A stretch of DNA of 64,000 bases. Source: Perkinsus olseni. Its lineage: Eukaryota > Perkinsozoa > Perkinsida > Perkinsidae. The stretch's first letter is position 1. Every line of letters starts with the position of its first letter. The translations under genes were made by a program, and so were the position numbers. The stretch is taken from contig JABANP010000052.1 in assembly GCA_013115135.1 (NCBI GenBank), positions 62,001 to 126,000 on the forward strand, written 5' to 3'. Below the pieces are notes generated by a model. The model ran no database searches. It was not told where the DNA came from and saw only the letters and a program-made list of their open reading frames with translations. Shown here piece by piece: positions 6,094 through 56,444 of the stretch.

Positions 6094-9000
6094 TCAATGA
6101 TTCCCTTCCACTGACGAACACAACTCGGCATGGATGTGATGAAATGATGGCAGCAGCCTCCCCCCCACTAATTCAGTTATCATCATGTTTCGCCCACCAC
6201 CAGCAGCAGCAGCCTCACATTCAACCGCCCGATGCTCGGCGAGGCCAGCGAGCTCCACCACTTGCCCACAGCCGTAGCATTGGGTGAGGCTCGGACAGTC
6301 TCGCCAGTAATGCAGATCCAATAGGTCACTCTGGTTGGCGAACTCCGGATCAGAATAGCCGCAGAATTGGCAGACGACGGGGGTTGGCGCCACCGCAGGC
6401 TGCTGCTCCTTGGTCAGCCCAGAGTTGGGCTGAGCATCCAGAGAGCTCGAAGGGAGGGTTCGAAGAATGCGGACTTACCCGGCTGTCCTGCGTTTGGGGC
6501 CTCCGCCGAGAGGCACTCTTACTGCTACTGCTGCTGTTACTCCCTCGTCGACCATTGAGGATCCGATCGATCTCCGTCTCAATTGCCTGAAAGAAACATC
6601 GCACTTCTATAAGCACTATAGTTATACCCTAGAAGAGGACACTTTACCTAGTATACCTCTAAATTTTGCAAAATTATCAAGTCTAACATCCACAAGTAAA
6701 CGATACCTTGTTCTCGTTGTTTGCCTCTTGAGGAAGCCGCATCGATGAACTAAAAATTGTTATTTTTTCCTGAGGAATTCCATACCGGACGATACCGTGC
6801 GTCCACCACACAGTGCATATCCATCGCCAGATATTATTGCTATGATAAAACAACTCCCAGCCGCCGCCGCCGCCCTCCTCCTCACCTCCCGTTGGGACTG
6901 CCTCTCGATGCCCTTGATGAAGGGCTTGATGGCGTCCCTACCGACTAGACTGCAAACCTGCCACACCATCAAGTCAGCACCACCGAGGGCCCACAGTCCC
7001 CACCTTGGCAGCCAAGGACACCGCAGACGACCGGACCTCAGAGGCGGGGCATTGCTTGAGAAGGTCGAAGGCCATGGTCAGCAGCACTGGGGCGGTGAAG
7101 ATGCTGTTGCTACCGTGCTGTGTTAGGAGAGGGTGAAGGGGAAGGAGGGGTTTATTCCTACCGCATTTTCCGCAACTCCTCCAGCATCCGTGCTCACTAG
7201 GCCACAGGTATCAATAACAGCTTGCAGGACGTCACAGCGAGCCGACAAGGCCTTGTTGGGCAGGAGGGACGGCGCCGCAGCAGCCCTCCCACCCGCCCCC
7301 ACGACGGGCGGTTATCTTCAATACCTACCAAAGTCGCTCCCCTTCCCTTCAGTGGTGCTACTGAGTACATGATGGGTGGCGAAGGACGGGCCAACATTGA
7401 CGGCGATGGCGAGTATAGCATTCCGTGTGGACTCCTGACAGCGCTTGTTGGGGTCCGACAGCCGATCGGTGAGGGCTGGCATGAGGGGCTCGAGGATGGC
7501 ATGGAGGTCACGAGAGCCGCGGGGCATCGAGGATACCATCTGAAGGGGAGGGCTAGGGAGCCTCCCTCCGGATGGGTGTGGCCACCTCATTAAAGACACT
7601 GTTGGCTGCTGCTTGAAGGAGCCTCATGCATGGCAAGAAGACCTACAGACCCGACGATACCGACAGGGATGGGGAGGAGAAGGGCCTACATTGGCAATTT
7701 TATCGGTGACACATTTTCGGACGGCATAGATGGCAGCGTGGGCGCCCGAGACGGCGTCCCCTTTATCAGCCCACACGCCCTTCTCGAGGTCATGCTCGGC
7801 TTGGATGAATCCCGCCTCACGAACTCTCCAATCCTGCGGGCGCATGGGTACTAATTATCATCATACCACTCCTTCCGTAACTCACCTTGCTGACTATACA
7901 CCGAATTATATACTCACCCAACAGGGTCATCGGAGCCCCTTGGGCCTCATGGGCCACAGCTGGGGGGAGTATTTCTGAAGTCACCATTCACCACGGGCCC
8001 TCCCAGATCCTCCCCTACCCGCAGCCGGCAAGGCCTCGGAGTTGGGGACGTCGGGCAGGTCCGGGTGTGGTCCCCGGTCCCCTCCCAAGGGTGGGGTCTT
8101 GGGCGTACCTCCCGTCTCTATCGGAGCTGCTGCTGTTGGTGGCGTTGTGTTGGCTGTTGCTACGGCATAATAGGGATCTTGGCCGAGGTACTCCGACTGA
8201 AGACTCGAGATCGGACAAGGGAGAAAAGGAGAGTACCGGAAGGGAGTTTGGTCCGGCCTCTAGGATGGATCTGTGCTGACTACTCCCACCGCCACCTGAA
8301 GGATACTTCAACCCATGCCAGTCACGACAGGCTGACCTGCGACGGCCGGCATCTCATCATGTGTGTTCACTGGCCGGCTGCTGCTCCCGTGGTATGCTGA
8401 TGAGTGGACGAAGGATCGTGGGTTCCATCAGGCCCGTATTACCATCACTGACCCCCAAGGGGGTGGTACGGCCAGAGACCCCCGACAAAGGGGGTTTGGA
8501 ACGAATGTCCGCCATGCTGATGGTAGTACTGGTACCGAGGTTCATACACAGTCTGTGATTGCCGAGGAGGCGGCTGGGCCGCGGCACCGTTGGTCCTGAG
8601 TGTTACACTGTGGTAGAGGGTTCTGCGACGGTGAGCCGACCTGAGTCGGTGTATCTCCTCCTTCAAGGCCTTGGCCCGGGGATAGTCCTCCTCCTGTACA
8701 GCGATACGTTTACTCCGCTCCAGCTCAGCCAACGCCCGAGATACTCCCTGCAACCGGGTTATCTCATCTTTCAGTCGCATCGCCTCGTCGTAATCCTCCA
8801 CCTGATATGGTAGAGGTCGCGGGTTCGAATCCCGGCGACGACAATATAACCTCCACAGCCCGCTGCTTTAATGACAGCAGCTGATCGATTTGCTTTTGTG
8901 TTTCCGGGTCGGCCTCGGTCCCGAAGATACCCTCGGGCCCTAGGGGGGAGAAGTCCCCAGTTGAAGGTGGGGGATGGTATGCAGCTGGGGGAACTTCCAA

Positions 9001-10080: not shown

Positions 10081-11514
<1,434 letters not shown>

Positions 11515-12027
11515 GTGCTGGTTATTATTATCATTATTGAGACTATGTTAAGAAAAACGAGGATTTATTTCACTACTATTCACTCGGTCAACCCGAGTCG
11601 TGATGGTCAAAAACAACTGATGATAGACTATGGATAAATGTTAGTGTCTTTTTGACTGCTGTTGAGTTCACAGTAGTGCAGGAGGATGGGAAAAGGCGGC
11701 CATTTGTGTAACTCTCGTTGACATTAGTATTGTTATTGAGAGTAAGGGCGGTTCGCTACACCAATGGGCTGGCTAGAGGAAAGAGGCTTCTACTGTGAAG
11801 TCTCATTCAGTCTCTAGTAGGCCTGACAGGTACCATGGTCTTCAAGTTACATGTTTAATGTCGTTTTCATTAGTTCTTTTGAGTGTTGTGTTGATGAGTG
11901 TAAATTATGTATCTTAGGTTGAAGCGCGTAAGATACACAACAGGTCAAGTTGGGTCAAATGAGCCTCGACTGGACCATGCGAGTCTTTCGGATCGACAGT
12001 AATTAATGATCAGATTGTTTGTCTTGA
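11515..12027. other. Intergenic, GAPDH 3' region with one repeat element
   Basis: No gene seen. At 11909-11957 is a full copy of the hairpin element: GTATCTTAGGTTGAAGC, then GCG, then TAAGATAC with ACAACAGGTCAAG after it. This copy shows the 8 bp inverted repeat GTATCTTA/TAAGATAC best, and here it lies outside any recognised gene. Confidence 0.6.
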
Positions 12028-16265: not shown

Positions 16266-16551
16266 AGCCTGTACTAACGTCCATTATTATTAACTGTACC
16301 ATTACTACTGTGTTGTTACATTTGCTTCACTGTCTTTCTGTCTGTTGTTGTTGTCAATTCTTGGGAAGGCGTCTCCGACCGTTTCACCTTCAGCCTTAAG
16401 GCGAGCGACATATCATAATGTCATTCCGAAACCGTCCGAGTCAGGTCGGCGGTTTCGTCCTTCATGCTCTCAAACCTGACGAGGGTCGTGGCACTCGCAC
16501 TAGCATTGGAGGGATCTATTGTGCTTCGCAGGTTTCCTTCTGTTTGTATTC

Positions 16552-18084
16552 ATGAAAGCCTTCATCTTTTCTGTCATTCTTGCTCCTTCGTTCGCTTTCC
16601 CCCGTCGAGTCCAAGAGTCTGGTATGTGGGATGACTACTGCCAATTCCTCAACGGTCCCGCCAGTGTCTGCTCCGGTACGGTCTGCTCCGAGGGTGGCCA
16701 AGCCTGCGGTGACGAGCCTTCCGCGATGTCGACTGTCGGCCCCAGTAGCCCGTCTGAGGACACCGAGAGGCTTCGGTTGGCCTGCGATAGCTACTGTCAA
16801 GTTCTCAACGGTGATGCTTCCTTCTGCAAGTGGTGGTTCGAGTCTCCCGTCTGCCAGTACGGTGATCAGCCGTGTGGCACCATGGAGCTTTGTGGTAACC
16901 CTCCTCAGTTCACGCCGCGGCCTCGGCAGTATTCACCCGAATGGGATGAGTACTGCAAGTATCTGAACGGTCCGACGAGTCGTTGTGATGGTACTTGCTC
17001 GGGTGGAGGTCAGTCTTGCGGCAGCGGGGAGGTGCCTTCCACTGATGCTACTACGGTACCGGTTGTGATTACTACCGCACCCTCCTCATGGACCACTGAG
17101 ATGACCTCTGGTAGGAGCGGTGACGCTGGGTGTGATGATTACTGTAAGAGCCTCAACGGTGAGACTTCCTTCTGCAAGTGGTGGTTTGTGGACCCTGTCT
17201 GCCAGTTTGGTGACCAACCCTGCGGAGATGCTGATTGCAAGTCGGGAAGTGCCCCTGCGGTACCGCCTGTTGACCCCGTCCCCCCTAAGGAAGCCCCAGA
17301 GGAGCCATCGAGCCCAACCTCCCCTGACGATGTCGTGCAGAAGACTTGTGACGTTTACTGTGTTCAACTGAATGGTGAGAATTCCTTCTGCAAATGGTGG
17401 CACACTAACCCTGTATGCCAACACGGTGATCAGCCCTGCGGTACACTCGACGTCTGCGGACAGCCTGTGAACATCAGCCAAGCCCCTGCTCTGCCGAGCG
17501 GAGATGGTCAGCATCATGCTGAGTGTGACAAGATGTGCCAGAGCTTGAATGACGCCACTTCCTACTGTAAATGGTGGATGAACTTCCCCGTCTGCCAGCA
17601 TGGTGATCAGCCTTGTGGTGATGCCTCCGTGTGTGAGTCTGAGACGTGGCCCTCCCCCAAGGCCCCACAGCTGCCCCCAGGAGCTCACTCTGAGGCCTCT
17701 GCTGAGTGCGACTCGATGTGTAAGGACATGAATGGTGATGGTTCCTACTGCAAATGGTGGAGGTCAGTGCCCGTGTGCCACGGTGGAGATCAGCCCTGTG
17801 GCCCCGGGGACTTGCGATGGCGTTGCAGCTGTGACGACCCCGGCGTGGGTCTCGATGCCCACGGAGCCTGTCATTGCTACCACTACACCCTCTCCAAGAG
17901 GCCGCCACTGTTGCCCCTGTTGTTTCCGGTGCGCACTCGATGCCCGAATGCGAAGTGTGATGCCTACTGTACGGAGCTGAACGGCCCCGGGTCCTATTGT
18001 AAATGGTGGAAGGATATCCCCGTTTGCAAGGGAGGAGATCAGCCCTGTGGAGCTGCGGTCTGTGATGATCCGACGACTAGGTGA
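16552..18084 (+). CDS. Secreted protein with eight Cys-rich KWW repeats
   Basis: I do not recognise a named family. The start at 16552 gives a signal peptide (MKAFIFSVILAPSFAF); an in-frame ATG at 16519 adds 11 residues. Eight repeats of about 35 residues follow the pattern C-x2-YC-x2-LNG-x2-S-x-CKWW-x3-PVC-x2-GDQPCG, separated by Pro/Ser/Thr-rich linkers. Six are canonical; repeats 1 and 3 begin WD(D/E)YC, lack KWW and have a shorter Cys set. The even cysteine count per repeat suggests small disulphide-bonded domains, probably outside the cell or on the surface. Between repeats 7 and 8 the open frame runs through atypical sequence (LSKRPPLLPLLFPVRTR) while better linker sequence sits in the two other frames (see findings). 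No introns are visible. Confidence 0.85.
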   Translation: MKAFIFSVILAPSFAFPRRVQESGMWDDYCQFLNGPASVCSGTVCSEGGQACGDEPSAMSTVGPSSPSEDTERLRLACDSYCQVLNGDASFCKWWFESPVCQYGDQPCGTMELCGNPPQFTPRPRQYSPEWDEYCKYLNGPTSRCDGTCSGGGQSCGSGEVPSTDATTVPVVITTAPSSWTTEMTSGRSGDAGCDDYCKSLNGETSFCKWWFVDPVCQFGDQPCGDADCKSGSAPAVPPVDPVPPKEAPEEPSSPTSPDDVVQKTCDVYCVQLNGENSFCKWWHTNPVCQHGDQPCGTLDVCGQPVNISQAPALPSGDGQHHAECDKMCQSLNDATSYCKWWMNFPVCQHGDQPCGDASVCESETWPSPKAPQLPPGAHSEASAECDSMCKDMNGDGSYCKWWRSVPVCHGGDQPCGPGDLRWRCSCDDPGVGLDAHGACHCYHYTLSKRPPLLPLLFPVRTRCPNAKCDAYCTELNGPGSYCKWWKDIPVCKGGDQPCGAAVCDDPTTR

Positions 18085-23625: not shown

Positions 23626-26600
23626 CTATTGAGTTTCCTCGGCGGGGAAGAGCTTATCGATGGCCTCGCGTTGTGCATCCGTCAACGACTCCGGGAATTT
23701 AACATTCATCTTAACCTGATAGAATCCACCATGATCACCAAAAACCGAGCGGAGCGAAGCGGCGCTACATATAAGTCTCCGTAGTCACTATGGCCGCCGC
23801 CTTCGACTTTGTGCGGCATCCCCTCCCCAGGGATCTTCATAACCTCAAAAGGTTGACAGACCTCACCCGGCTGCTTCACCAAGCGCACCTAGGAAACTCA
23901 TCTTTGCGAACCACTGAATCCGTTGCGTCACCTGATGGCCGTCTAAGTGAGCCATGGACCTGTCGAAGCCCAGAAGGGCTTCTTTCAGGGGTATCTGCGT
24001 CGCCGTCCGCAAATCGTATCCGTTCTCTCGCATGAACCTCTGGTCGCTGGTCTGTTTGATAGTAAATATTAGATTACCGGGGATCTGTCCCGGACGCTGT
24101 TCAGCCATGCCTTCGAAAACAATCTGAAAGCACGAAAAAGATATTTAATTTCGAACTTGTCGCTCAAATTTGCATGCTAATGGGGTGATTGAGGAATTGA
24201 CTGAAGCATGCGGCACATAATACCGAGCAACAACCCTCCACCATCCAGCTTCATGTGTTCCCAAATTTACTCCCCCACGGCAGACTGTGTGATCTCGAGA
24301 GAGTACACAGGCTATCCTACCGGAAGGCCAGAGAACGGCAAAATGACGGAGGGTATTAATACCTCCATTCCCTGTGATTCATACGGAGTATCCTCCCCCA
24401 CCTGCTCGCCATCCATCATCCCCTTCTCGATGTTGAGCTCGAGCTCAGTATCCTCATTTTTGCATCTCTCCCGACTCGGGACTTGTTGCTGTTGTTGAAC
24501 GAAGAACCCAGGCCCGACCTGATCCACACATCGTGACTCTCATCCAAATTACGCACAGCGAAGATTTGAAGATACCCTTAGATACCCACCCACCTGCTGT
24601 TGGACCATCTTAACCTCATCCGGGCACTTCCCGCACCCCCGGCACTTTTCGAGATCCGGTTTTTGTCGGCACCCAGTACAGACCACACGACGATTGATCC
24701 TCACATGCTCCTTGGAACCAGTATACCTGAAAATCTTGCTCTCTCGCAATTCCTCAACGTACTTCTTGAAGACCCTTACAGCTTCTCCAGCGGCACTGGG
24801 TAGGTGACATGACCATCTTCGCCTCGCGGTATGTCCCCCTTCTCCATGGCTCTCACTGACTCCATACCTCCCATGTCGTATAGGAATTTCTTGGCCTGCA
24901 GATGCAGAACGATCGCGCGCGCCCCGATGATCGATTTGGATACTACCGGGTCCGATAATATCTCGTTAGCCTCTCCTATCCGCGTGAATTTGCGATGTGC
25001 TGTCGGATCTGCAACCGACGCGCTCTCCCCGATGACGACCCCGGTTCGACCCCCGCATCCAACACTCACCATTCCCGGTCTTGTCCGGGTGATACTTTAT
25101 AGACATTTTCCTGAACGCTTTTTTCACTGTACTGACATCTGCCCCCGGCTCTAAGCCTAGATCTCCGTATCTTAGATAGGGTGCGAGTAGCGCGCGCCAT
25201 CTCGATCGATTATGGAAGAAAACGGTCCTACAGATCTCTCCGGGCATCCTGTATTTCTGTATCGAAAACCTGGACGAACTCTGCATGAAGGGGAGCACCG
25301 TCTCGCTTCCTCTTTCCACTCAGGGAGATCTGAAAGTGGAGGGGCCGGGGATCGAACCAAGGACCTCTCGAATGCCGAACAACAGGCCATATCGTTAAGC
25401 CATGCGCCCGCTTCGTACATTGGGAAGCTCCAACTCGAAGTCATCATCATTCATATCTGGCATGTGATCAGCCTTCACCTCGTGTAGCCCAGACTTCCTG
25501 CGGGAAACCAGCTCCGATAGAAACCAATAATTTACGGATGTTATGGTACTAACTAATCGCTTCGTAACAAATGCCTCATCTAAATTCTCCGTCTCAACTA
25601 TTGCACTTTCCGATCAAATTAGATTGGGCACAAACATGATCATTCGCCGGTTATTGTATTAAATCTTCCATACCACTCCATCCGTAACTTACTTCCCCCA
25701 CATTATATTAATATTCCCGTCTTTATCAGCGCTCCATTTACACTGTTTAGCCTGGGGTTGATGGCACTCCTCAGTCGGGGCCACAAAAATCCCATCCGAC
25801 TGGAAGCGAACCTTCTCCCAACTGAAACATCACCGACCGAATACCAGTAACTACCAGACAGGCATTCGGACGTGAGAGCGATCGCCATACCAACGCCACC
25901 GCTGGCGCAACCGATTCATGAGCAGACCCACACCCCAGCCATAGAACTTGACACAGAGTAGCTCGCAGCACGGTGGAAGGGTCGGTTGGATGACTGTGAC
26001 GCACAGCCGAGAAAAAGAGTATCTTAGCTCATCGTTGCAGATGTGCGTTCCATCGTGGGGTTGGATAAGAGTTTACACAGAAAACATGTTGAAAATTTGG
26101 GTTTGTGAGTTGCACGGACTGCTCTCGATTATAGAATTTCTTGAACCCATAACGACCTATAGACGCTCGAGTCCTCACCTTACGATCGGCTTGGGACTGG
26201 TCCGAACGGAATTGCAAAGATGGGTGAAAACTATTCGACTCACTCGTTCCACATCCACTCCGTGCCCTTCATCCAATCCATCGATTTGTGTATCTTTGAA
26301 GTCACCCCCTTGGGGAACTTCACGGGCTTGTACCGAGGTTGTTGCGGCTGATGAAAACCTCCACCTAATTACAGCGGAGCGACGCGAATATATACTTCGA
26401 TCAACGATGATCCTCAAACAGTCCGGTGGAATCTACGGCGCTCGCCGCCCCTATCAACGTTCGCCCATCGCCACTCGAGAGCCCGTTGATGCTAATTATT
26501 ACCACCAAATTGAAATTGGAAGCCTCCCCCTCCCCCACCGCCAGCGCCTCCGAACGCTTGGTTGAGAATATCCTCTATGAAGGCTTGTGATGGCTGGATG

Positions 26601-36707: not shown

Positions 36708-38004
36708 ATGTCGGGAACAGGCTCCGGATACGATCTCTCGGCTACGACGTACTCCCCTGATGGAAGGGTCTTCCAGGTATCTTAGCTCGAAGCATGCAGG
36801 ATACAGAACGGGCTAACACATGTTTGTCTTAGATCGAGTACGCTCAGAAGGCAGTTGATAACGGCGGCACTGCCCTCGCTCTGTGCTGCAAGGACGGAGT
36901 AATAAATTATATCGCAATTGTATACCGCAATTCCCCCTTCCCGTTCAGATCGTCTTCGCCAACGAGAAATTTCTTCTATCGAAGATGTTGGTGCCGGGTA
37001 CCAATAAAAGGATATTCCCAGTGGATCGTCACGCCACTCTGGCCATCTCTGGGCTTGTTGCCGATGCTAAGCAGATCGTTGAGAGAGGTAGTCATGATAA
37101 TTATACTCATCATCGTTTTATTTTTGGAAGCGAAATTCATTCTGAAGTATGTGGGGAGAATCGTTCAGTCCCGATGCGTGAAAACGCCTCTTTTGAAATA
37201 GTCGGCTCGGTCGATGCGGCATGAGTTTATTATTTCAGCTCGGGAGGAGTGTTCTCAGTACAAGCAAGTATATTCTACTCCCGATACCCTGGACCGGTGC
37301 TGGCGGATCGCGTAGCTATGTTCATGCACATGTACACGCTTTACTGGAGTGGTAATAGCGGAACGGGTTATAGGGTTAGTGTCTCGTACAGGAGGTCTAG
37401 GGTTCAAGTCGCAGGAGAGTTTATTTTGTTCAGTTCGACCATTCGGCAGCACAGTCCTTCTGGGCGTTTATGACGAAGTTGAGGGGCCTCAACTCTACGG
37501 CATCGACCCCAGTGGAACTGCTATCAAGTTCAAGGGGATTGCTGTGGGTACGAGTATCTTTTATCTTGTTATAGACAGTCTTCAACATCCTCGTATTCAT
37601 CAGGGAAGGGTCGCCAGGCCGGGCGCACTGAAATTGAGAAACTTCTGCCAACCGACGCAGCGGTGCCTTATGTGAATCTGACCTGCGAGGAAGCGAAGTT
37701 CAGCGCAGCTAAGATAATCCAAAAGTGCCACGACGAGAAGGTGAGAGAATCTTCTGTTCAACCGTGGAAGATACACAATAGGTCGGGGCACACGTTTTTT
37801 TCAGGACAAGGACTTCGAGTTGGAGATGGCTGTGTTGTGCGATGCCACCGGAAAGTCGCATAAAATGGTAAAAATATTAATTCGGTATCGCACTGTTTAT
37901 CTCTTTCGGGTGGGCAGCTTCCCCAAGCGGAGATCCATCAACTCCAAGAACGTGCCAAGAAGTCGATTGAAGAGGAAGAGGAGGCACAGATGGAGGAGGA
38001 CTAA
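36708..38004 (+). CDS. PSMA3: 20S proteasome subunit alpha type 3
   Basis: Structural alpha-ring subunit of the 20S proteasome. Eight exons: 36708-36776, 36833-36898, 36949-37087, 37239-37351, 37434-37547, 37604-37740, 37805-37867, 37918-38004. The product is about 261 residues. MSGTGSGYDLSATTYSPDGR matches the alpha-subunit N-terminal signature, followed by IEYAQKAVDNGGTALALCCK, LSKMLVPGTNKRIFPVDRHA, LADRVAMFMHMYTLYW, VRPFGSTVLLGVYDE, GIDPSGTAIKFKGIAVG and an acidic tail EEEEEAQMEED typical of alpha 3. Exon 4 is one base short between VYSTP and LADRV (about 37280), which shifts the frame. Introns 1, 4 and 6 contain repeat elements. Confidence 0.95.
36777..36832 (+). repeat. GTATCTTAGG-family element forming PSMA3 intron 1
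   Basis: A 56 nt intron whose donor is the first base of the element: GTATCTTAGCTCGAAGCATG, then CAGGATACAGAACGGGCTAA, ending TTGTCTTAG. The neighbouring codons (VFQ|IEYAQK) are invariant in alpha subunits, so both borders are certain. Confidence 0.92.
37352..37433 (+). repeat. tRNA-like element forming PSMA3 intron 4
   Basis: An 82 nt intron between TLYWS and RPFG. It contains a D-arm-like GGGTTAGTGTCTC and a B box in GGTCTAGGGTTCAAGTC, in the sense orientation. Confidence 0.85.
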
Positions 38005-38337
38005 TACTGGGTGGTCATTCGAGAGGCCTCGGGTTCGATTCCCAGGAGTGACTGCTGCCTATTGTGTGTCAGAAGCACGAATAGTAATCGTTTCAAAAGA
38101 TACTCTCAACACCCCTTCCCGACTTTGGTTCATCATAAATCTGACCGGGGGGGCTGTTTGGTGGGTGAACAGGAGCTGCAACCACCAGGTGCTGTCGTTC
38201 CCATTGTCCGAGTGGGACACAAGCATTGACTGTGGTAAAGGTGATAACTGTTCGTAGTAGGGCCGCTGCTGTTGGTAGGTTGTTGTTCTCGGTAGTGGTA
38301 GTTTTGTTCTATTACTACTATGTCTACCTGATTATAA

Positions 38338-42094: not shown

Positions 42095-43019
42095 ATGAGT
42101 TCGACCATCACCATCATCGGCAATGTGAACTGTCAGCATTATCAGAAGGTGAAGTGTCTGGCGGAGTTCCTCAAGAAGAGCTCGGAGGACAGAATCGAGA
42201 TCCGCGGATTTTTTGAGGCGGACTTCGACAGGATTGCGTGCGAGTGTGCAGTCTCACGTGCCGCTGATCGACGTAGAAGTGTTGATTTTTGTGGAGGAGA
42301 AGGGGGAGGACAGAATTCTGCAGTTTGGTGTTAAATCGTTCGAGGAGTGGGTCGGAAAAAATTACGCATTTTTCTCCGACGATTGGCAGTGTGGCGATTT
42401 CGAAGAGAATATGAAGGCGAATGCGGAGAGAGATCTACGCGATTTGATGAATCCTGAAAGGTCTTACGTCCGGATGAATTTTGTGGCGCGCGAGAATGAC
42501 TATAATGGCTCGGTTTTGATCGAGTTTTACGATGATATTTGCCCGAAAAGTTGTGAATTTTTAAAGAAGAAATTGTCGGAATCTTCGGTAACTCGGGCAG
42601 TGAAGGGAGGATGGATTCAACTCGGTGAGGACGGCGGAGCGGTCGAGGGAATTGCGAGAGAATCCTTCGCGGTGCATCACGAAGTTGGTGGTATTATTGG
42701 CTTATGTCCTAGCGGAGCGAAGCCCGGATTGTACGGCAAGGAGTTGTATATTACTACTAAACCGTTGGAGCACCTGGACGGTAATGGAGTGGCTGTTGGG
42801 AGGGTGCTGGAGGGACTTGAATTGGTGGAAAAAATATCAGAAATTGATACGATGGGTTTTAGTAATCAGAAGCCTAGGATGGAGGTCAAGGTGGAAGGTG
42901 TGTCCGAGGTCGGGGTGAAGACGGGCGTGAAAGATAACAGTGACGGTCATATCGATTGGAAATCGATCACGCGATCGATTTTACGAGGGGTGATGGAAAA
43001 ATTCGTTGTTGTGGGATGA
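42095..43019 (+). CDS. PPIL6: PPIL6-like cyclophilin-domain protein
   Basis: Cyclophilins are peptidyl-prolyl isomerases; PPIL6 is a cilium-associated member with an N-terminal extension. The ATG at 42095 gives MSSTITIIGNVNCQHYQK; the preceding CCCTTCAG at 42069-42076 may be a splice acceptor for the leader. The extension (LAEFLKKSSEDRIEIRGFF; KSFEEWVGKNYAFFSDDW) matches that of PPIL6. The cyclophilin fold follows: SVLIEFYDDICPKSCEFL, HHEVGGIIGLCPSG, GKELYITTKPLEHLDGNGV and GRVLEGLELVEKI. Several catalytic residues typical of active cyclophilins (for example the Arg and Phe of FHR and QFF) are not seen, so it may be inactive. Near 42235 the frame moves by one base; a missed 19 nt intron is less likely. 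The 3' end at 43019 is a TGA. Confidence 0.85.
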
Positions 43020-43239: not shown

Positions 43240-46200
43240 TTCTCAGTTGTTGCACAAGTGTTTGCCTTTTCGAGTCTCCTCGAGGACTCGGAGGTCATCT
43301 TCGGCCCGTGCGGGTTTATTTCGACCAGCCCGGTGGTGAGCATGGTCATCAGTATCATGCTGGTAGGTAGTATCTTTTATGTCTGTGAAAGACGTGGATC
43401 GACCCAAGATGCGCATTTTGTTTGACTAAATGATGGAATCTTCTCAGATATGTTGTCTCCTGTCGAGCATCTATTCTTCAATTTTTTCATTCAGTTCGGC
43501 GGCCGTGGCGATTCACGGTCTGCTATTTGCGGCGGCTCATCTGGTGTAAGCAATTTCGTGGCGCGGTGAAAAATCCCGGAGGAACTTCACTAGGTTGCTT
43601 CAAAGCGTATCTTACGATTTCGAAGTATCTAAGGTCGGCCCGCAGTTGATTTGGAGCGGTTATGATAAGCTACTGGTCGAAGCCTCGTTGATGGTCTTCA
43701 TAGCAGGAATTCACGGGCAGTAGGTTGTGAAAGGGCGCGCGCCCGAGTGATCGTTTTATATGTTAGATACGGTGTACTTGAAGTTCCTGCTGTCGAGGGT
43801 TTTCCTCTCTGCCGGCCTGTACACCATTGTGAAGAATGGTGAGTTGCTGGGATCGAACCGGGGACCTACGGGTAAATTGAACTCGTTTTTCCTCGATCCT
43901 CACCATTATTGAAGGAAGTGGCTTTGATAATAATAGTCCCCTCCAGGACTGCTGTGGTACTCAGGTGGGTGTCGTGTCGCGTTACGCGACGTATCTCGAA
44001 GCGTGCTTGATCCGCTCCCATTTTCTGAAATTTTCTCACCGACAAGCGTGGATCTTGCTAATCTTGCTAAATCTTGCATTTTCCTCAGATTTGGCGTGGA
44101 CAAACTTGGCTGACATGTCCTGGTCGAGTATGCTAGACGCCCCGTTCCCTCTACCTTTAATCTGGCATGCCGATAAATTTCCTCCCGTGAGCTTAGCGGA
44201 GCGAAGCGATTTTTGTTTCTCATGTTCCCCAACAGGTTCTTCACAGCGTTATTGGGGGATTGACTGTCGCCGTTGAAATTGCGGCCTCATTAATTCTGAT
44301 GGCGTCCCCGCCGGCCGGCGTTTTCGAATTCCTCTCAAATGTCTCGATGGCGGTTTTGGCGGTGTGGTCGGCTTGTGTGGGTAATCGAAAGGTTCCTGGT
44401 TCGAATATCGGTTCGAGCTCTTTTCAGGTAATTTGAACTGGTCTATTCTGACACTTCTAGCTTTGAGTGTTGGAATGATTGACGAGGAGATTATCGCTGC
44501 TGTAGTGGGGACGGATATATTCCAACGATTTGGTACCTGATGTGGGAATCGATCACCAGGGCGAGCGCTTTTTGCACCAGGTTGTAAGCGTGTATTGGCA
44601 CCCCTTTGACAGAGGAAAGAGTGGAAAAGACCATCATGAAGGCGGTAATATGTCGGGTGGTGGGATCGAACCTGAGACCTTTGCCGTACGGGAAGCCTCA
44701 GTTGTTATTCCATTCCGGTTGAAAAGTTGGAGTATGAAAAAATTGGGGAAATTGTTTATTTTTCGGGACGGGGACAGAAAGGTTTGTCTCGCTCAGTGAG
44801 AGATGTCAAAGATTTTTCCGGAATTTCAGGCGGAGAACATTCGTGAAAAATGTCAGAAAATAGAATTTTTCCGAAAACCCACTTTTCTGTCTCAGATTGT
44901 CCCTTCTATTATATTCACCATCGTCGTACATCTACCGGCCGTCTTATTGGCACTAAAGTACGCCTCTCTTGGTCCAGTGGTGTCGAGGGACTCCGTGTAA
45001 TACACCGTTTAACACCTTATCGATCACCAGGGCGAGCGCGGTTCTGTCAGGCCTGCTGGGCTTTGGGGTGTCCTTGCTACTATCCCGGGAGTGTTGGTGG
45101 TCGTCTACGGCCTTGTTGGACGAGGGACAAATAAAGGTATTTAGCAGCTTGCTTGACGAGACAGTTCTGGTGTGATTCATTTTCTCGGACGTTTTCACGC
45201 CTTTTTCGGATTTTTTTCTGTTCAGCGTTTTCGTGGTTTTCAGATTTAGGTTTTTTGCCAATTTTCCCTCTTTCAGGAGGTTTTTCAAACCGTGTGGCAG
45301 CGACCTTAGTGGCTGTCGCCACCGCTTGGCTGATCGGAACAACCGATGTCGTCGGTTATGATATGGAAGGAACCTTGAGCTCGAGTAAGCAAGATACGGG
45401 ATAGGTCAAGTTGATGCCATAAGCAGGTATACTACCGGTGCCATACGTTCGTAGTGGGAGACTTCCTGAGGAGCGCAGTGGTGATTTCGCGCGCTAAGGA
45501 ATTATGTCGGAAATTTTGTTGGCAGGAAATTTCGGTGCTCCCGTACCGCACACCCTCGACGGTAGAAGCGCCCTCACCTTTCACGTACAGGCCGAAGGGG
45601 TAATTATATCGATCATTTGGGCGAGCGCTTTATGCGTTCTCTTTTTCTCACTGCACAGATGCCGAATCCTGATCACAGCATGGAAGGACTATGGGAGCTC
45701 AACATGCCGTATTCGGTTAACGTAATAGTTTCCGGGCGCGCGAGAATTTTGGACTTTTCTCGTTGAGAGGCCCGCTGCCTGTGGTTGGATAATCTTCGTT
45801 CCTCTGCCACCGGCGGCTGTCGTAGTCCTCGGATAGCTTTCCGCAGAAGTTCATTCGGGAGAATCGTAGGATGCCGAGGGTCATTAACGAATCATATCAA
45901 TTTGCTCCTCAGTGTTGCGGTTGGCTATTCTGTCGCTTACTATCGTCCCGCCAGAGCGTCGAATTAATTTCTTACCGCCAGCCGGAGGGGTATCCCGCCC
46001 CGTATCTTTCGTTTTGTCTTCAGTCAGATCAACGTCCAAGATTCTTATCATTCCATCACCCTAGGGTAGACTATCTAGTCTGGAAGTTGCACACTCAGGA
46101 GGAGGTGGAAAAGCCGGGGTAAGCTGCTTTCCGCTGACATCGAGTTATTTCTAGGAATCAATTTCTCGGAATTTCTGAGGGGCCAGTGTCATGTTTTCCG

Positions 46201-46560: not shown

Positions 46561-46599
46561 ATTACTTGACCTATTCTGTATCCTGCCAGCTGCGACCTG

Positions 46600-47490
46600 A
46601 GATACTTTTTTAGACGATCTCGGGCGTCGAGCGTTGGTAGCGTTCAGCCGAAAATGGGAGTTGACTGATGATAAATACGGAATATATTGGTAGTGAGCTG
46701 TGGAGACCGCGGGTTCGATCCCGGCACCCTGTATTTTGACTTCGCCGCTTTGAAGCCTACTTACTCACTGTAGATGCTTATTGAGAACTGACTTGGCTTT
46801 TCCACTTACCTCCCGCTGTCGGTGTATCTCATTCTGACTCAGCAAGGTTGGAATCATTATTATCAGACTCTGGGTAAAGATCATATGAAAATATTAAGAA
46901 TCTTATCATTTAGCTTCATTTCCTAGTTCGAAGATTCCACTGCAAAATCATTGTTATGGAGATTGGGCGATCTGAATAAGGTGCGGAGTAGATCGCATCC
47001 GGCGTTTGGTGGGCGGCCTAGCGTGTGAAAGGCGCTCATCAGGAATTCTCAACACGTTATGGAACGGTCTCTGGATTCACGGGGGGAATACTCTCCTCAC
47101 TGAACCTGCTGTTCGCACCGGGATACACTCCTATCTTCAAGGTGGTCGTCAGCTGGATCGTCCGCCATCACTGGAGTGCCGGCGGGGCTGATGGTGACTC
47201 TCCCACAGGGATGGTGTCCCCAATCGGCATACCGTAACCCGATTTTCAGAATAATCGCTAAGGTAGGTATATTTGTGTTCATGCGTGCTTGTCAATTATC
47301 TATAGCTATCTTCGAACTCTGAGGAACATCCACAACTGAGGTCGTATTGATTCTGAAAACAATCGATTTTTCTGTTTCATATACTCACCAGTTTTGGGTA
47401 TCATTTAGGTTCCCATCACGATCAACGAGGTGAGCGTCGGTGTTATCACCGCAGGAATGATTGCCAAACTCTTATTCGGGTAGGAGATCA
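46600..47490 (+). CDS. Possible further membrane-protein exons, not recognised
   Basis: Plus-strand segments 47025-47237 (GTVSGFTGGILSSLNLLF, then TPIFKVVVSWIVRHHW) and 47410-47480 (PITINEVSVGVITAGMIAKL, preceded by ATCATTTAG and followed by a GTAGG donor) look like membrane-protein exons. A tRNA-like element at 46690-46732 precedes them. I cannot say whether they extend the LMF gene or form another one. Confidence 0.25.
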
Positions 47491-48153: not shown

Positions 48154-48813
48154 CAGAACAGGCTGGGCTAACGATGGGGTCCACTGACGCCCTCACTACT
48201 GCGGCGACGATCACCAAGAGAGTCATCGACGAGCAGTTAGCAGTCCTCTCAGCGTAGGTGGAGGGCGCAGGTTCGATCCCGGCAACTTGCTTAAGGAAAA
48301 TTCACCTATTTGATAATCAGTGAACCTCCGATAGTCCACTTCGTTTGATTTGATGTTTTTCTTGGTAGGTATCCTCAGCATTTGGTGACAGCTGCACAGA
48401 TGCCGGCTAAGATGACCGCGCTGGAGACCACTACTAGTGACTTAAAGTTACAGGTGAACACTGGAGTGGTATTGTTGTTGACCTCAAGATATTAGCCTAG
48501 CTTCAACCTAAGATACTCCGTTTCTAGGTCTACACGTTAGATGCTCTCCGGGCGTGTCGTAAATTGTGGCGTTTGGCGTGTGAGCTTCATACAAGCAGTT
48601 CTTGCATGAGGGTGGGCACGGAGCAGCTCAGGCCACTGGAACTGGGTGGAAGACTGAAGGAAATAGAGGTAAAGAAAAGCAAGTTTGAGCAAGATTGCAA
48701 GATTTGCTGTGTTAGGACCGAATAGGTGAGTTGGAGGAGCAGTTGAGAGAGTCCAGGAGGAGCGCTGAACTGCCTAGTAACGATTTGGTTTATGACCTCG
48801 AAAATACGCAGTA
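48154..48813 (+). CDS. Helical/coiled-coil protein, unrecognised
   Basis: ATG at 48154 opens MAEQAGLTMGSTDALTTAAT, then ITKRVIDEQLAVLSA. The intron that follows (from about 48254, GTAGGTGGAGGG, to TTGGTAG) begins with a tRNA-like B-box element, after which the frame continues with YPQHLVTAAQMPAKMTALET. Later exons: YTLDALRACRKLWRLACEL (48530), RLKEIE, then GELEEQLRESRRSAELPSN and VYDLENTQ (48727-48813). The heptad-like pattern suggests coiled coil. The piece around LDALRACRKLWRL resembles helical tether subunits of Golgi complexes, but only loosely. The true 3' end is unknown. Confidence 0.45.
48250..48291 (+). repeat. tRNA-like element at the 5' end of an intron
   Basis: GTAGGTGGAGGGCGCAGGTT followed by CGATCCCGGCAACTTGC, sense orientation, starting exactly at the splice donor after QLAVLS. 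Confidence 0.75.
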
Positions 48814-49708: not shown

Positions 49709-50194
49709 AATTAGGGAGGTTGCTCGTGATGTTGGTGAAATCGGAAAGAATAGGAATCTACTATGTCCGCTATGGGAGTCTATCCTTCGCTCGGCGTGTT
49801 GGCGATTTTATAGTTCCGCTTAAGTCGTTTGATAAGTTCATTCGAGGCATCAGCCATCCGAAAGGAGGGATTGGGTCTGGACGAAACTTGAATAAGGAGG
49901 GCATGAGGCTTGTAAAAATGGCTCGGAATTACCTGGCTGAGAAAAACAGTAGTAGTTGGAAACCGCGTTGAGAGTATCGAGCATAATCGTTCAACCTAGA
50001 CGAAGTGGATTCACTCGTAAAGGTGCGCCGCAGGTGCGCCCCCGGCGAGTCTATCGGTCCCAAAGTCGACAAGGGAAATTGCCACTGAGGTTACTCCTGG
50101 AGCTGTGGAGATACTCAAGGTTTACGTATCGGGGAAGAGCGAGGTAGTATTGAAATGACGGGTGCAGGGATCGAACCGGGTGTCTTCACAGCCT

Positions 50195-53100
50195 GGCAGA
50201 ATTGTGATAGCCTTGAAGCAGCTGGCCGGGCATCACCAGAATGTTGAGGAAATAGAAGGACTCGAGAATTTGCCGGAGTAGGTTGGTAGTCACGCACGCG
50301 GAAGGATTTGACCTTTTGTAAGATACCAGCGATTGTTGGATGATATGGGCGCCGCCCTGGATCTGGCCAGATTCTCCGGACCAGAGATATCCGAGCTCGC
50401 AGAGTACTTCCGTGTAAGATACGAAATAGGTCGACCTCAGTATCAGTGTTAATGATGTGTTGAAGATACTGGGCGCTCCAGGAGTTGCCAACCCGTCACG
50501 ACAGATGGCGAAACGGCTGAGTGTAAGTTGATCGATTGGGGCGTATCTTAGGTTGACTCTGCTCAGTTTCAAATATGCGAACGTTTACATGAACTGAGCC
50601 CTGTGGAGAGAATCCGCACTATCTACGTCATCACCACTGTAGGTTGGGAGCGGTGTCAGGGTACTGGCCACGGGAAACTATGAGCTCATCCTCGCTGCAA
50701 ACTTGTCTAGTCTCATGAATTTCCTGTCACCCGGTTGTGAGCGACTAACACCGGCTAATACAGGTTGATACCTGTCGAACTGACCGACTTGGTTTGACCT
50801 CCCAGATCGTATACTCTCGATTCCTCGTTGCATCGACATTCGCAGACTAAGTCCGCCGTAAATCGTGGCTCGCCCTTCACCAAGTGAACTTCGTATCGTG
50901 TCTGACGCCATCGCGCCAGTTTTTCCTCCGCCGCAGTAGCTGCCCTGAGCATTGAGTAACACATCGCTGATTTTGTATTCTTAGCGGAGCGAAGCGTTCT
51001 CTCAATGTTATTTTTCAGTGGATGGGGCTTCGTCTCGATGATTACACCCATTGGGCTCTACACCAGTCGATCGATTCTTGGATCGACTCCCCGGAAGTTG
51101 ATGATGCTGCGGTATTACCGGCCCTGTAGGAGAGATCAAAAGTTGGACGATTGTGAGCAAAGATGCTTTCTTAGGTATCTTCTGTGCGAACCTAGTATGC
51201 GGAAGCGCAGCCACAAGGTTTTGACTAAACCCAAGGTGGGGCGTATCTTAGGTTGATGAGTGGAGGATACGAAATAGGTCGAATCCAGGTTTTCACTCGC
51301 ATGGAGGGAATGGTTGATCGTTTGGAAGTTCATCAAGTAGTGGACATGGTCAGAGCGCTGGGGAAACATGAGGCTCAGGTGATTCAGGGAATTTCTGGTA
51401 TCAATAAATCTTTGTCGTGTAAACCATATCATCAGAAATCCATCGTCAGCAAGGCTCTTACGAGGCTAGCTGCGAATCCAGGAAGGATTCCTGACAGGAG
51501 TTTACCGGCATTAGCGGGTTTCTTAGGGTGAGTAATCGAAAGATTCCCGGTTCGAACCCCGCGTCCTTCACTATATAGGTCGACCGACCCGGCCAGCCCC
51601 GACATGTCTCCTGTTGCTGCCCATGCCAGGAAGCGGCTGTCTGATGTCCTCGCTGACCAGAGTGTAGGGTTTTAAAGTCTGTATGTGTGCGTACCACTCC
51701 TTAGGTTAATCGTAATGATGCCGCGCATCTTGTGGTTGAGCTCGCTAAAATGCCTACTGTAGCAGATGGTGTTCTTGACGATTCAGCCGAGGTGAGCTCA
51801 GATCTGTCACTGCGCTACGAAATTTCCCTCTCCGGCAGATGATCCGTACGTCAGCCAATCACCTAGACCGAGAAGTTTTGCCGCAACTTCTATTGCTGTA
51901 CACCGCGGAAGGGGTAGTATCTTCTGGGGCCTGCCGTATCTCGGTGAATATGTGTGAAAGAGTATCTTATCTTCACCCTAGGAATGCACAAATTGAGGTT
52001 GGCAACTGATTTCAGAAACCTATGCGGGAATTGGAAATATCTGCTATGGCGGGTCTGCGGGAAATTCAGCCGAAGGGAATCGCTAAGCTGTGTCTAGCAG
52101 CGGCAGCTGGAGGAAGTAACAATATCATCCTCATCCTATACCACAATTTTGGTTATTCTAGTGCGAGAGAAGGATGCCTTGGTTGCCTTGTATGGCGAGT
52201 GTCTGGACCGTGCAAGGCAATTCGATCCCGAAGAGTAAGACAGCGTTGGCGGACCTCGTACCGTGTGCCTAATTTTGTGGCGCATGGAGAATTATACGCT
52301 ATCGAGAAATCTGATTCCTGCAGAGGCAGATCGAGATCTTGTGAGCATATGCATGAGTGCCATGGGAGTTCTGAGCAGTGCGACAAAATCAGGAGATGTC
52401 CCGTTTGATGGATTTTATATTCATAGAGACTATCGCCTCGCCACCACTGCGTTTGGTGATTACACCTATTCCCATTCTAAGTTTCATCGATGCCTTCTAC
52501 TCGATGAGCCTTGCTGGACTTGTCAATGATGATGCTCTGGTAGAGAAGGTGGATATCGAGAAGGTAACCTATTTTGTATCTTGCCAGCGTCAACCTCTGT
52601 GCCGTAACTGTCAGATTATACGTCAATCGCCTGTATCGGCCCTTCCCTCCCTAGCCTGGTCGTTGGTTGTCGCCAACTTCAGCCGTCCCCTACCATGGAG
52701 TGTCCTCTGTAATACACCCTACGCAGTACCCTCCATACTCTTAGCTCGGGGTTCGTTACTTCATCCCAATCGATGATTTTGTGGCATTATAGAAAACAGT
52801 CTTGAATGGCCAGCGCAGCGAGACCACCCCCGATTTGAAGGGAGTGTCACCAAACTAGCGTTACCTTCTTCTTTCGTGTCCGTAGGCTCGCGAATCATCG
52901 AAGACCCAGCGAGAGCAGTTGGCGATGTCGAGTTCGATGACCATGGCGACTGCGTGAAGGGAGACCCTCATCAAGCGGCTTTACTGTAGGGAAAATTACT
53001 ATCCTAGAGGGATTTAGTCTTTGCGCTGTTCGCAACGTTCGTATCTTGCACGCTTGGACCTCAGATACGAGGCCTTAGCAAGTGCAGCGGCTCTGAAGTG

Positions 53101-54017
53101 GTTCGTGATTGACGAGCCGTCAGTCGTAGCGGGTATGGAGAAGTGGAAAGTGGCTTGGAGAAGTACAACCCCACCGATCTTGCTAACTTGCGATTCCTCA
53201 ACTCACAGGTACACAGGCTCAGCAAGACCCCCCTAGCCGAATGCCATGGGAGGAGATTCTCAATAAGGTAATTTCTTGAGGTAAATCGATCGTTAGGGCG
53301 AGCGCTACTCGTTCAGTTGGACATATCCCATCAAATGGAGGTGGAGGTTGGTTACAAGTGGCCGTTATGGGAAGTGCCAATTTTGATGTCCGAGTTGAGC
53401 TGCGTGATTGATCCGAAATTGAGGAAGTCCCAGATTGTACATTACTACAGCGGGCTGACGACGGGAACTGCCAAACTCAGGCATCGAATCTGGAATGCCA
53501 AGTGAGCCGCCTCCTCGGTCATTACGATCATCATCCAATTCTAGGGGATATGCCGTGTTTGGTATCGGAGATGACCAGTTCCCCGAGGCTAGCGGCGGAG
53601 GAGCATCTGATGTGAATTGCGACTTCCTGGCGGGTCTGTTGGATATAGTAGGTCCATGTTGCTCCGTGTGATGTTTAAGGGACGGTCACAATCTCCCTGG
53701 GCTGATTTTTTGTTAACGCGACCGCACCTCGAAGCCTTTGAGTCGGAGGGATTGAGACACCTAGTTCTGGCTTGTTAGAGGCATTTGGGTGTGATATGTT
53801 AGGCGGCCTTGGTTGTCGTAGGTGAGGTTGAAAGATACTTTCCGTGTTCGTGCAGGTGGTTAAGAATCAGCTGAATAATCAGCGTATGGCCGGTATCGAG
53901 CTGCAGACGACAGAGCGCCCCAACAACAGCAAGAGGAGGCAGCCTACACGGTCAGGGAAGGTTGTTGACTTCGCAGCTGAGCGAGCTAAGAAGGAGTCTA
54001 GGTGGCTGAGAAGATAG
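50195..54017 (+). CDS. Helical-repeat protein, possibly organellar RNA-binding (HPR/OPR-like)
   Basis: A run of plus-strand exons separated by short introns reads as repeated pairs of amphipathic helices: LKQLAGHHQNVEEIEGLENL (50210), YQRLLDDMGAALDLARFSG (50325), VNDVLKILGAPGVANPSRQM (50450), DDYTHWALHQSIDSWIDSP (51040), VVDMVRALGKHEAQVIQGI (51340), PGRIPDRSLPALAGFLG (51480), ELEISAMAGLREIQPKGIAK (52030), LSFIDAFYSMSLAGLVNDDA (52470), EKYNPTDLANLRFLNSQV (53165) and VVKNQLNNQRMAGIELQT (53855). It ends FAAERAKKESRWLRR with a stop at 54017. About 35-residue periodicity and conserved Leu/Ala positions resemble organellar HPR/OPR proteins of alveolates. Frame joins were checked only at a few introns, so it may be two genes. 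Confidence 0.4.
52564..52614 (+). repeat. GTATCTTAGG-family element forming an intron, antisense
   Basis: A 51 nt intron after LVEKVDIEK: GTAACCTATTTTGTATCTTG, then CCAGCGTCAACC, ending AACTGTCAG. This is the reverse complement of the element at 51241-51285. Confidence 0.75.
53268..53316 (+). repeat. CGATC...GGGCGAGCGC-family element forming an intron
   Basis: A 49 nt GT-AG segment reading GTAATTTCTTGAGGTAAATC then GATCGTTAGGGCGAGCGC and ending GTTCAG, inside the helical-repeat gene. Confidence 0.7.
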
Positions 54018-54449
54018 TGTGTCATGTTTCTGTTACGAGTGCCGAATGCGTTTCTATTGACCTACAGTGGACTGTTGAGTACGGAGATCAGTTATGTGTT
54101 GGGCTGTCGGCTCCGGTCATCACCTGTACTGGTGGAGGGCCTACTCTGGTTGTTCGAGAGAGGACTTCCCAAAGACGGTTATGACCTGTGACAATCACCA
54201 CCTAATTACACCACGTTATCTAGCTTGGGTTCGAGTATGGAGGCCGTTGGCTTTCAGAGGTCACCTCCCTCGGCTGCGCACATCTTCTTCATGGAACTCC
54301 CTCCCCTCGGTTTCTTACTACTGGCCCATCCTGGGCCTCCGTTCTGAGAACGAACTTCCGATTCTGGCTGGCAATGCTATTTTAGGATAGAGAAATGCCC
54401 GTGCTTGGGTTCGAACCGGGGTGGGGATTCGTGACCGAAGCAGAGTCCT

Positions 54450-55183
54450 AGCTGAGTTTAACTCTGCTATTCCCAGCCCCGGTTCCCGAACAGGCTATTG
54501 TACGGCGCGTTAAAGCACTCAATGTGTTATTTATCAGACATGGTATACCGAACGATTCGGTCCGAGTCGTGGAGGAAATAGCGCTCGCCCGATCTGGGCG
54601 TGCGCTATTTGCTCGGCGCGTCATGTGCTCTGGTCTTGGGGATTGGGTCATTGCCAAGAATTTCTCAGTATATTATTATGACTTACTCTCTGACTTCTGA
54701 TGATGACGAACGTTATCACAACGCTAGAGGGTTCCTGTACGAAACGAATAAATTAATGAGAGAAAATAGCGAGACGGATCTTCTAAGGTGAGGATGTCGC
54801 CCGTCACCGTCATCACTGTGGGGCCCTCAGTTACCAAAACGCGTTGATCCACGAGAAGGTCGGGCCGCTAGTTCGCACCTCCTTCGGGGTTGGAGTCCTT
54901 ATGGGGGTCCGACCGGATGGTACGGCTGAGGTGCAGTTGCAAACGTTGAAGATGTATCCAAGGCTTACTGATGTAGGGTCATCGTTCGACCGTCTCTTGA
55001 CCACTCACGGTAGATACGATTACTCCCTGAGAGGCCTCCGTCATTTCATGGCGATAGTGAGGGTCCTCAAGGCTGTAAACGAGCAGGGCAATATCATGAA
55101 CAGCAGTCCTGTCCTAACAAGAATAAGAGGCAGTTGGATGATTTCCACTGAGTTGATGATCCTCGCTGAGCGAACGATCCTTT
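54450..55183 (+). CDS. Unrecognised exons, possibly SH3/KOW-like
   Basis: Plus-strand pieces that look coding: 54470-54660 (VPEQAIVRRVKALNVLFIRH, then SVRVVEEIALARSGRALF), 54844-54980 (HEKVGPLVRTSFGVGVLMGV followed by RPDGTAEVQLQ, a small beta-barrel-like motif of the type FGxGxxxxxRxDG) and 55010-55130 (DYSLRGLRHFMAIVRVLKAV). Introns between them carry GT-AG sites. No family assigned. A near-palindromic tRNA-like piece (GGTTCGAACCGGGG) lies at 54400-54422. Confidence 0.3.
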
Positions 55184-55264
55184 AGTCGCATCGGTGAACG
55201 GTGTTGTGTTGTTGATTTTGTTCGTGACGGCGATGGCTGAATAGTGTTCAGCTTCGATCGTGTG

Positions 55265-56444
55265 ATGACTCTTCCTCCTGGGTTTAAGGACAATCGTCCG
55301 CAGTGGTTGAAAATAACCCAACCCTTCGCGGCGGGAGGCCTTGCTGGGTCTTTGGCGACCTGCGTCATTCAACCCGTTGACATGATAAAAGTAAACAACT
55401 CGATCGTGACTATCATCACCGAGGATCTCAGGTACGGATCCAAATAGCCGAGGCTGGCGCAACCCGCAGCCCTGTGGTCATCGCTCGGAACATCATAGCC
55501 AACGAAGGCTTTCTCAGCCTCTACAAAGTAGCTCCCTCTTCTTCTCCTCTTCGCACTGGACTCACCTCAGGGCCTGGATGCGGGTATAGTCCGGCAGCTC
55601 ACTTACACTACCACTAGGTTGGGGGTGTTTCGTCTCACATCGATGTCGTTGCAGTCGCCTCATGAGAAGACTCTGCCCTTCTGGAAGAAGGGCGTTGCTG
55701 GACTGTAACGCCGTCATGCGCCCTCGAGTTGCAAACCTTTCTTCAGGTTCGCTGGTGGGGTGGGAGCGTTCGTTGGCACCCCAGCAGATCTCTCGCTGGT
55801 TCGTCTGCAGGTGAGCACAGCCATCTACATTTTCGGCCATTATCGCTGTTCAGGCCGACGCCACCCTCCCCCCAGCCGAGCGTCGTAATTACAAAGGGGT
55901 TTTTGACGCCATGAGCCAGATTGTTAAGGCCAGAGGGAGTGACTGGTCTGTGGAAAGGGTCTCTTCCCACCGTCACTCGGGCCATGGCTCTCAATGTCGG
56001 AATGCTGGCAACCTTTGACCAGGTAACCGTGCTGTTAATACTATTGTGTGTCTTCGATGCCGTTCTTTTCAGGGTAAGGAATATTTCAGCCACCTCATGG
56101 GCCCTGGATGGGGGAGCTACACTAACAGCATCCGCATGCTCGGGCTTCGGGGCATCGGTTATGTCCCTGCCGTTTGATTTTGTAAAGACAAGAATTCAGA
56201 AAATGAGACCGGATGCTAATGGGGTCATGCCCTACACCGGTACTCTTAACTGTTTTGCCAAGGTACAGGAGGTCTCCGGTTCGATTCCCTGTCACGGTAT
56301 ATTTATTAGGTTCTCCGTGAAGAAGGTCCACTAGCTTTCTATTCAGGCTTCCCGACCTACTACACTCGTATTGCTCCCCATGCGATGTTAGTTCTGCTAC
56401 TGGTTGACGCGATCAACACCTCAGTGGTGAAGTCGTTCGCGTGA
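55265..56444 (+). CDS. Mitochondrial carrier, 2-oxoglutarate/malate (SLC25A11) type
   Basis: Inner-membrane exchanger of dicarboxylates. Seven exons: 55265-55390, 55432-55527, 55571-55704, 55747-55810, 55854-56022, 56073-56262, 56310-56444. The three carrier repeats are present, with signatures QPVDMIKVRIQ, TPADLSLVRLQ and LPFDFVKTRIQKM. LDAGIVRQLTYTTTRLGVF, ADATLPPAERRNYKGVFDA, GLWKGSLPTVTRAMALN and FPTYYTRIAPHAM are typical of the oxoglutarate subgroup. There is one extra base near 55932 (KA|EGVTG) and another in the GGATGGGGGAGC run near 56115 that shift the frame; without them the gene is complete (about 303 residues). Intron 6 (56263-56309) is a tRNA-like element. Confidence 0.93.
56263..56309 (+). 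repeat. tRNA T-arm element forming a complete carrier intron
   Basis: The 47 nt intron is GTACAGGAGGTCTCCGGTTC followed by GATTCCCTGTCACGG and TATATTTATTAG. Its borders are fixed by the conserved carrier sequence NCFAK|VLREEGPLAFYSG. Confidence 0.9.

Follow-up and report, generated by a model that had tools for sequence, protein, structure and literature searches.

A repeat of ~42 nt derived from transfer RNA (tRNA) was found to be dispersed through the genome of Perkinsus olseni, and about ten loci, in unrelated genes and in both orientations, provide good support for its predicted role as an intron. The repeat is made up of the last part of the tRNA variable loop, followed by the T-loop (B-box), the base A73 and a run of T residues, and is recognized by the core GGTC-N3-GGTTCGATCC. 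It was analysed in a 64,000-nt stretch of contig JABANP010000052.1 (positions 62,001 to 126,000, i.e. C468:62001-126000; hereafter, the window) and across the P. olseni assembly (61.48 Mb in 968 contigs). The interpretation favoured here, to which we assign a probability of about 0.6, is that these sequences represent an old family, or families, of tRNA-derived B-box repeats, dispersed in both orientations and spliced as GT-AG introns where they reside within genes.

Eleven introns with homology-supported joins were identified (Table 1; lengths follow our own splice models), five with the repeat in sense and six in antisense orientation, consistent with an earlier note on the window, which had reported both. 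That note had also placed the splice sites at the element borders in PSMA3, a DnaJ-domain gene, a mitochondrial carrier gene and the gene at 8802..8850, which we take to be CEP104 as named by that earlier reader rather than by a search of our own. These placements were corroborated by gapless or domain-spanning joins: the PSMA3 join is gapless and identical to that of an annotated P. olseni protein (P0122), the Pfam DnaJ domain runs without gaps over its join, a UVR motif spans the join of the spliced CEP104-like product and a Mito_carr domain spans that of the carrier. Accordingly, the PSMA3 and DnaJ introns are well supported, though with repeats that score among the lowest; the other nine introns contain a strict core or a match of at least 17 bits to the repeat model described below.

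Nine of the eleven introns are 47-62 nt long around the ~42-nt repeat, the exceptions being that of PSMA3 (82 nt) and a composite intron of a USP7-like gene (117 nt). For comparison, four of the seven introns placed in PSMA3 carry neither this repeat nor the second type discussed below, and measure 50, 151, 56 and 50 nt; reported lengths for Perkinsus introns lie between 39 and 1622 bp, most being <100 bp, according to the part of the source considered here (PMC3101222). As introns with the element are as short as those without, the repeat seems to fill the intron rather than to form an insert in one, unless old sequence was later removed.

The exact core was observed 549 times in the genome, true tRNA genes included, compared with zero matches for a reversed control, and with up to one mismatch these numbers were 1815 and 19, respectively. 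Within the window, ten core matches with up to two mismatches were detected versus 0.52 expected. A model was built from 45 copies that lie outside both the window and C1:1-200000. At a threshold of at least 12 bits, it reported ten matches in the window, five in 200 kb of C1 (indicative of uneven density) and zero in a shuffled control of 1.32 Mb, while at 10 bits or above these values were 13, 6 and 1. Scaling the 549 strict cores by their share of model hits (5/15) gives a rough genome total of ~1,600 copies. The earlier observation is judged to be largely right, and the feature to be genome-wide.

All ten window hits of at least 12 bits fall within the ~17 sites listed in the earlier note, ten of which (260, 8802, 25330, 38011, 43841, 44656, 46690, 48250, 50159 and 56263) score at least 14 bits, with two more near 10 bits (44381 and 51529). 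The remaining five are unsupported by their sequence under the same model (9005, 8.5 bits; 25009, 4.8 bits; 37352, 3.2 bits; 39675 and 57300, no hit).

To describe the layout of the repeat, 50 strict-core copies were aligned, consisting of four window copies and 46 genomic loci, after removal of two true tRNA loci from an original 48. In tRNA coordinates, these copies show A44 (90%), GGTC at 45-48, the T-loop, C62 (86%), C72 (72%) and A73 (74%), where the core itself was the selection criterion. The four positions that follow A73 each hold T in 56-72% of copies. Conservation fades 5' of about position 34, suggesting truncation or divergence of the 5' part in most copies, and an A-box is present 36-37 bases ahead of G45, at about tRNA spacing, in 4/50 copies; these A-boxes lend some support to the proposed tRNA ancestry of the repeat. 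The copy at 25330..25418 is a near full-length tRNA-derived sequence with an A-box 37 nt ahead of the core. The 'near full tRNA shape' claimed in the earlier note holds as far as this spacing, but no tRNA was recognized among the window copies, ARAGORN reporting none and the Rfam tRNA family being absent from the window matches at E<=10. At the strict-core loci, ARAGORN was positive at 2/48 (L036, tRNA-Asn; L057, tRNA-Thr) and found no tRNA gene at the other 46.

The T-stem does not follow the tRNA pattern. Watson-Crick pairs 49-65, 50-64 and 51-63 occur in 32, 56 and 22% of copies, compared with 40, 53 and 29% after shuffling, whereas the T-stem is fully paired in 5/5 real tRNA genes (two with a G-U pair). 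Most copies thus probably descend from a B-box-bearing element that was already without a cloverleaf, and a description of the copies as intact tRNA 3' ends was dropped on the same grounds. Furthermore, no conserved column was detected past the T-run, up to +44, in the 50 copies, and neither a shared nor an A-rich tail was found; long interspersed elements themselves were not searched for. The status of the repeats as tRNA-derived short interspersed elements (SINEs), to which the earlier note had likened them, is accordingly incomplete.

Splicing itself we infer from sequence. In the proposed scheme, the spliceosome would treat a genic copy as any other GT-AG intron, one that barely exceeds the repeat in length. 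For copies in sense orientation, the GT would be supplied by the anticodon-loop/variable-loop stretch, often as GTAATCG... or GTAGGTC; GT dinucleotides peak at -10 (9/50) and -3 (8/50) relative to G45, whereas positions -70 to -31 have on average 2.6 each. The T-run after A73, of the type associated with RNA polymerase III (Pol III), lies at the place of a polypyrimidine tract and may act as one. In antisense copies, the GT would be followed by A-rich sequence, and the AG would be preceded by the tRNA-like 5' end in complementary form. For example, the 5' splice site of the antisense copy at L006 can lie directly beside the complementary T-run (GTAAAATG), while at L054, where the intron was placed by open frames only, the 3' site can come after the complementary tRNA-like 5' end (GGTTACAG). 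The repeat may have spread via reverse transcription of a Pol III transcript, and the intron may have been made at the moment of insertion.

Several observations weigh against the favoured interpretation. The copies are very diverse, with a median pairwise identity of 35% outside the ascertained core, and the T-stem is unpaired, as described above. The repeats in the PSMA3 and DnaJ introns are weak matches (3.2 and 4.8 bits, respectively). Pfam matches (E<=0.01) were obtained at only 9/46 strict-core loci, six of them running cleanly over the join; at L035 the domain spans the join only with a long insertion, at L063 and L067 the match does not support the element join, and the remaining 37 loci gave no match.

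The dispersed repeats make up nearly whole introns at unrelated loci. That they acted as introners, creating these introns on insertion, is plausible; traces of the insertion event were not found. Target-site duplications (TSDs), which the earlier note had proposed as a check, are not in excess across the 50 copies (longest shared flank word, 5.04 versus 4.83 in mismatched pairs). A direct repeat, GTGGAG, flanking the CEP104-like intron was considered as a TSD and rejected, as both copies stay in the spliced reading and the group test was negative. Some contigs have second copies with a divergence of ~2-7% (15% in one pair), such as a heterozygous or polyploid assembly would yield. No empty site was encountered among them: of 22 loci searched, 10 returned second copies, and 16/16 of these copies, at ~2-7% divergence, kept the element, in a search that scored part of the candidates and may have split or missed an empty copy. 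Contig pairs chosen because both copies matched say nothing on the absence of the element. The second-copy contigs, which include those of L069/L070, L071/L072 and L093-L107, would allow internal haplotype or homeolog comparison.

In a carrier paralog (C612, L111; 64% DNA identity nearby), an intron of 51 nt lies at the identical codon and contains, at most, a decayed element. This indicates that the carrier intron site predates the paralog split or that an intron was gained there twice. Flank openness of the 50 copies was no different from that of random C1 positions in a coarse test, and one window copy resides in the 3' untranslated region (UTR) of PSMA3, which speaks against fresh creation. 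Taken together, these five results suggest that the family is old and leave replacement of existing introns as a live rival. The more ambitious proposal, that Pol III-type tRNA-derived elements, perhaps re-inserted through RNA, created many introns of this Perkinsus, with tRNA parts providing splice signals in both orientations and a hairpin family acting in parallel, is put forward tentatively and judged to fall short of even odds.

According to the replacement explanation, the repeats colonized or replaced pre-existing introns, selection for shortness trimmed the old sequence and no new intron arose. The intron of the carrier paralog, the copy in the PSMA3 3' UTR and the presence of two different repeats in the 117-nt USP7-like intron are in agreement with such a history. 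It would, however, require repeated compensating deletion, as 9/11 element introns are close in length to the repeat-free ones, and the two orientations have been about equally successful; we regard it as somewhat unlikely as a general account.

Alternatively, the sequences could have arisen independently of one another, as decayed pseudogenes or fragments of many different tRNAs captured at DNA breaks, without any mobile family. Positions 49-51 indeed occur as several types (CCG, CCC, CCA, GTG, GCA, TCG and others), the variable-loop/T-arm string of a true tRNA-Pro gene is very much alike, pairwise similarity is low and TSDs were not found. Conversely, T-stem pairing has been lost although the T-loop is intact, and the subtype GGTAATCGAAAGGTC-N3-GGTTCGATCC was found at 13 exact genome sites, some of which may be second copies of one locus. 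In addition, one element is common to the unrelated genes L046 and C28/C228 (92 and 90% by BLAST; 50 bp at 92%). Independent capture is therefore deemed unlikely. The L046 and C28 elements lie in opposite orientations relative to their genes (the L046 gene strand being derived from open frames only), which argues against reverse splicing, since this copies the sense strand only.

Retention of the B-box for a function in place (TFIIIC binding, a splicing aid or insulation), as proposed for mammalian intronic tRNA-like sequences, is considered improbable. Between duplicate contigs, divergence is 28/630 in the elements versus 442/5922 in the flanks, the latter being inflated by the L034/L107 pair (103/385), but the adjacent upstream 20-base bins (-100 to -21) are equally conserved (3-4%), exact-core choice biases core divergence downward and T-stem pairing is absent. 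Purifying selection on the B-box was rejected as a candidate because its signal is inseparable from ascertainment. Chance matches or functional tRNA genes, although 2/48 strict-core loci are real tRNA genes, have a negligible likelihood overall and are excluded for the ten strong window sites, given the absence of hits of at least 12 bits in 1.32 Mb of shuffled sequence and of window tRNAs by ARAGORN and Rfam.

In a second repeat family, the sequence GTATCTTAGGTTGAAGC (227 exact genome copies versus zero for its control) opens a hairpin repeat of ~41 nt. The seven introns placed in PSMA3 measure 56, 50, 151, 82, 56, 64 and 50 nt, and three of them carry one of the two repeat types, the B-box match there being weak; the two with the second family were placed by tblastn with P. 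marinus PSMA3. The second family also lies beside the antisense B-box repeat inside the USP7-like intron, and forms tandem arrays with a 34-nt period on contigs C169 and C95. A composite SINE whose tail would be the second repeat was rejected, since the two repeats are close neighbours at just two independent loci, approximately the chance level by our own estimate. Further window copies of the second family were noted at 11909, 51243, 46589(-), 123(-) and other positions.

An annotated P. olseni protein matches long parts of the window PSMA3 with full identity, and the identity extends to a stretch where an intron is read through; the GAPDH of the window is 99% identical to that of P. olseni. 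The PSMA3 frame slips between conserved blocks at ~37300-37330, suggestive of an assembly error or of a very small unrecognized feature, and the annotated P. olseni PSMA3 protein is odd as well.

Table 1. Repeat copies and introns in the window (upper rows, window positions) and element introns at other loci (lower rows). Scores are from the independent 45-copy model; a slash marks an exon join.
Feature	Position or locus	Strand	Length (nt)	Element	Score (bits)	Remarks
Dispersed copy	251..289	-			33.9	
CEP104-like intron	8802..8850	-	49	antisense	17.5	GT-AG; gene on - strand
DnaJ-domain intron	25009..25069	-	61	antisense	4.8	GT-AG; HPDKTGN/DPTAHRKF
Candidate intron	25330..25418	-	89		31.8	LPN/ISLS; from open frames only
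PSMA3 intron 1	36777..36832	+	56			second-family copy begins at 5' splice site
PSMA3 intron	37352..37433	+	82	sense	3.2	GT-AG; LYWS/VRPFG
PSMA3 intron	37741..37804	+	64			more diverged second-family copy
3' UTR copy	38011..38050	+			14.6	6 nt past PSMA3 stop codon; gene end via P0121
Dispersed copy	43842..43872	-			26.9	
Candidate intron	44381..44427	+	47		10.2	starts GTAATCGAAAGG, ends TTTTCAG; open frame on both sides; no Pfam match for flanking product
Dispersed copy	44647..44684	-			25.7	
Dispersed copy	46708..46737	+			21.2	
Dispersed copy	48263..48291	+			19.3	
Dispersed copy	50152..50179	-			17.8	
Dispersed copy, borderline	51533..51573	+			10.5	GTAATCGAAAG type
Borderline copy	54391..54421	-			11.4	missing from earlier list
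Mitochondrial carrier intron	56263..56309	+	47	sense	20.2	GT-AG; CFAK/VLREEG
Kinesin intron	L001		49			gapless join AYGQT/GSGKT; Pfam
Thioredoxin-like (thioredoxin-fold) intron	L006		62	antisense		Pfam domain over join
TPP enzyme intron	L033		51			Pfam domain over join
Adenylosuccinate synthetase intron	L037		48			gapless residue alignment; Pfam
CK2-alpha intron	L059		53			gapless residue alignment; Pfam
Ufd2-like intron	L060		48			below Pfam cut-off
USP7-like intron	L108		117	antisense		gapless alignment; donor chosen by hand

Other features were observed in the same sequences. A 14-nt exact repeat, TAGCGGAGCGAAGC, occurs on the + strand of the window at 42710, 43185, 44194, 48108 and 50982 (five copies in 8.3 kb), with further copies in C1 and L069. 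Window positions 57591-62533 contain a diverged segment pair ~2.7 kb apart (73-96% identity in blocks), and a 511-aa open frame at 16551-18084 encompasses a cysteine-rich repeat (95 nt, six copies) and a putative signal-peptide-like start. High-scoring tRNA gene clusters, many with equal scores and in arrays spaced ~166-185 nt, are located at C778:264811-310471 and C823:79646-81382.

The origin of spliceosomal introns is an old question. If the creation proposal is true, a bidirectional tRNA-derived source would connect the birth of introns with one of the very common types of dispersed repeat, and tRNA genes would represent a standing source of ready-made introns, an origin that the sequenced Perkinsus species make directly testable. 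With SINEs derived from tRNA, the Perkinsus repeat has in common the B-box (by which its copies were selected here), 5' variability, a dispersed occurrence in either orientation and, in occasional copies, an A-box spaced approximately as in a tRNA, but it differs in being only ~42 nt long, with no shared tail seen past the T-run and no TSD excess.

Among known intron-generating systems, the introners surveyed by Gozashti et al. (2022; PMC9860276) are alike, in the parts of that survey considered here, in that similar dispersed sequences each form an intron in unrelated genes, with splice sites within or beside the element. TSDs and terminal inverted repeats are not required there, being shown by 49/130 and 72/177 families, and the survey argues mainly for DNA-based elements, as far as those parts extend; its main text, to the same extent, does not contain the terms tRNA, SINE or Perkinsus. 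No tRNA-derived introners were found in the literature searched, as judged by titles and the starts of abstracts among the matches listed, with subscription papers and preprints outside its scope. In contrast to the surveyed introners, the Perkinsus core is tRNA-derived with a B-box and T-run, occurs in both orientations and is very diverse, with no recent insertion seen. The introner elements of Amoebophrya (Farhat et al. 2021; PMC7789003) likewise are repeated introns, in a dinoflagellate relative, but are described, in the sections considered, as non-canonical introns with 8-20-nt inverted and 3-5-nt direct repeats, whereas the Perkinsus introns are predicted to be of the GT-AG type and show no TSD excess. 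Finally, human nimtRNAs (PMC7722341) are also tRNA-like sequences within introns; as portrayed in the portion of that article considered, they keep the cloverleaf and are contained in their introns, whereas the Perkinsus repeat, with its unpaired T-stem, appears to constitute approximately the whole intron.

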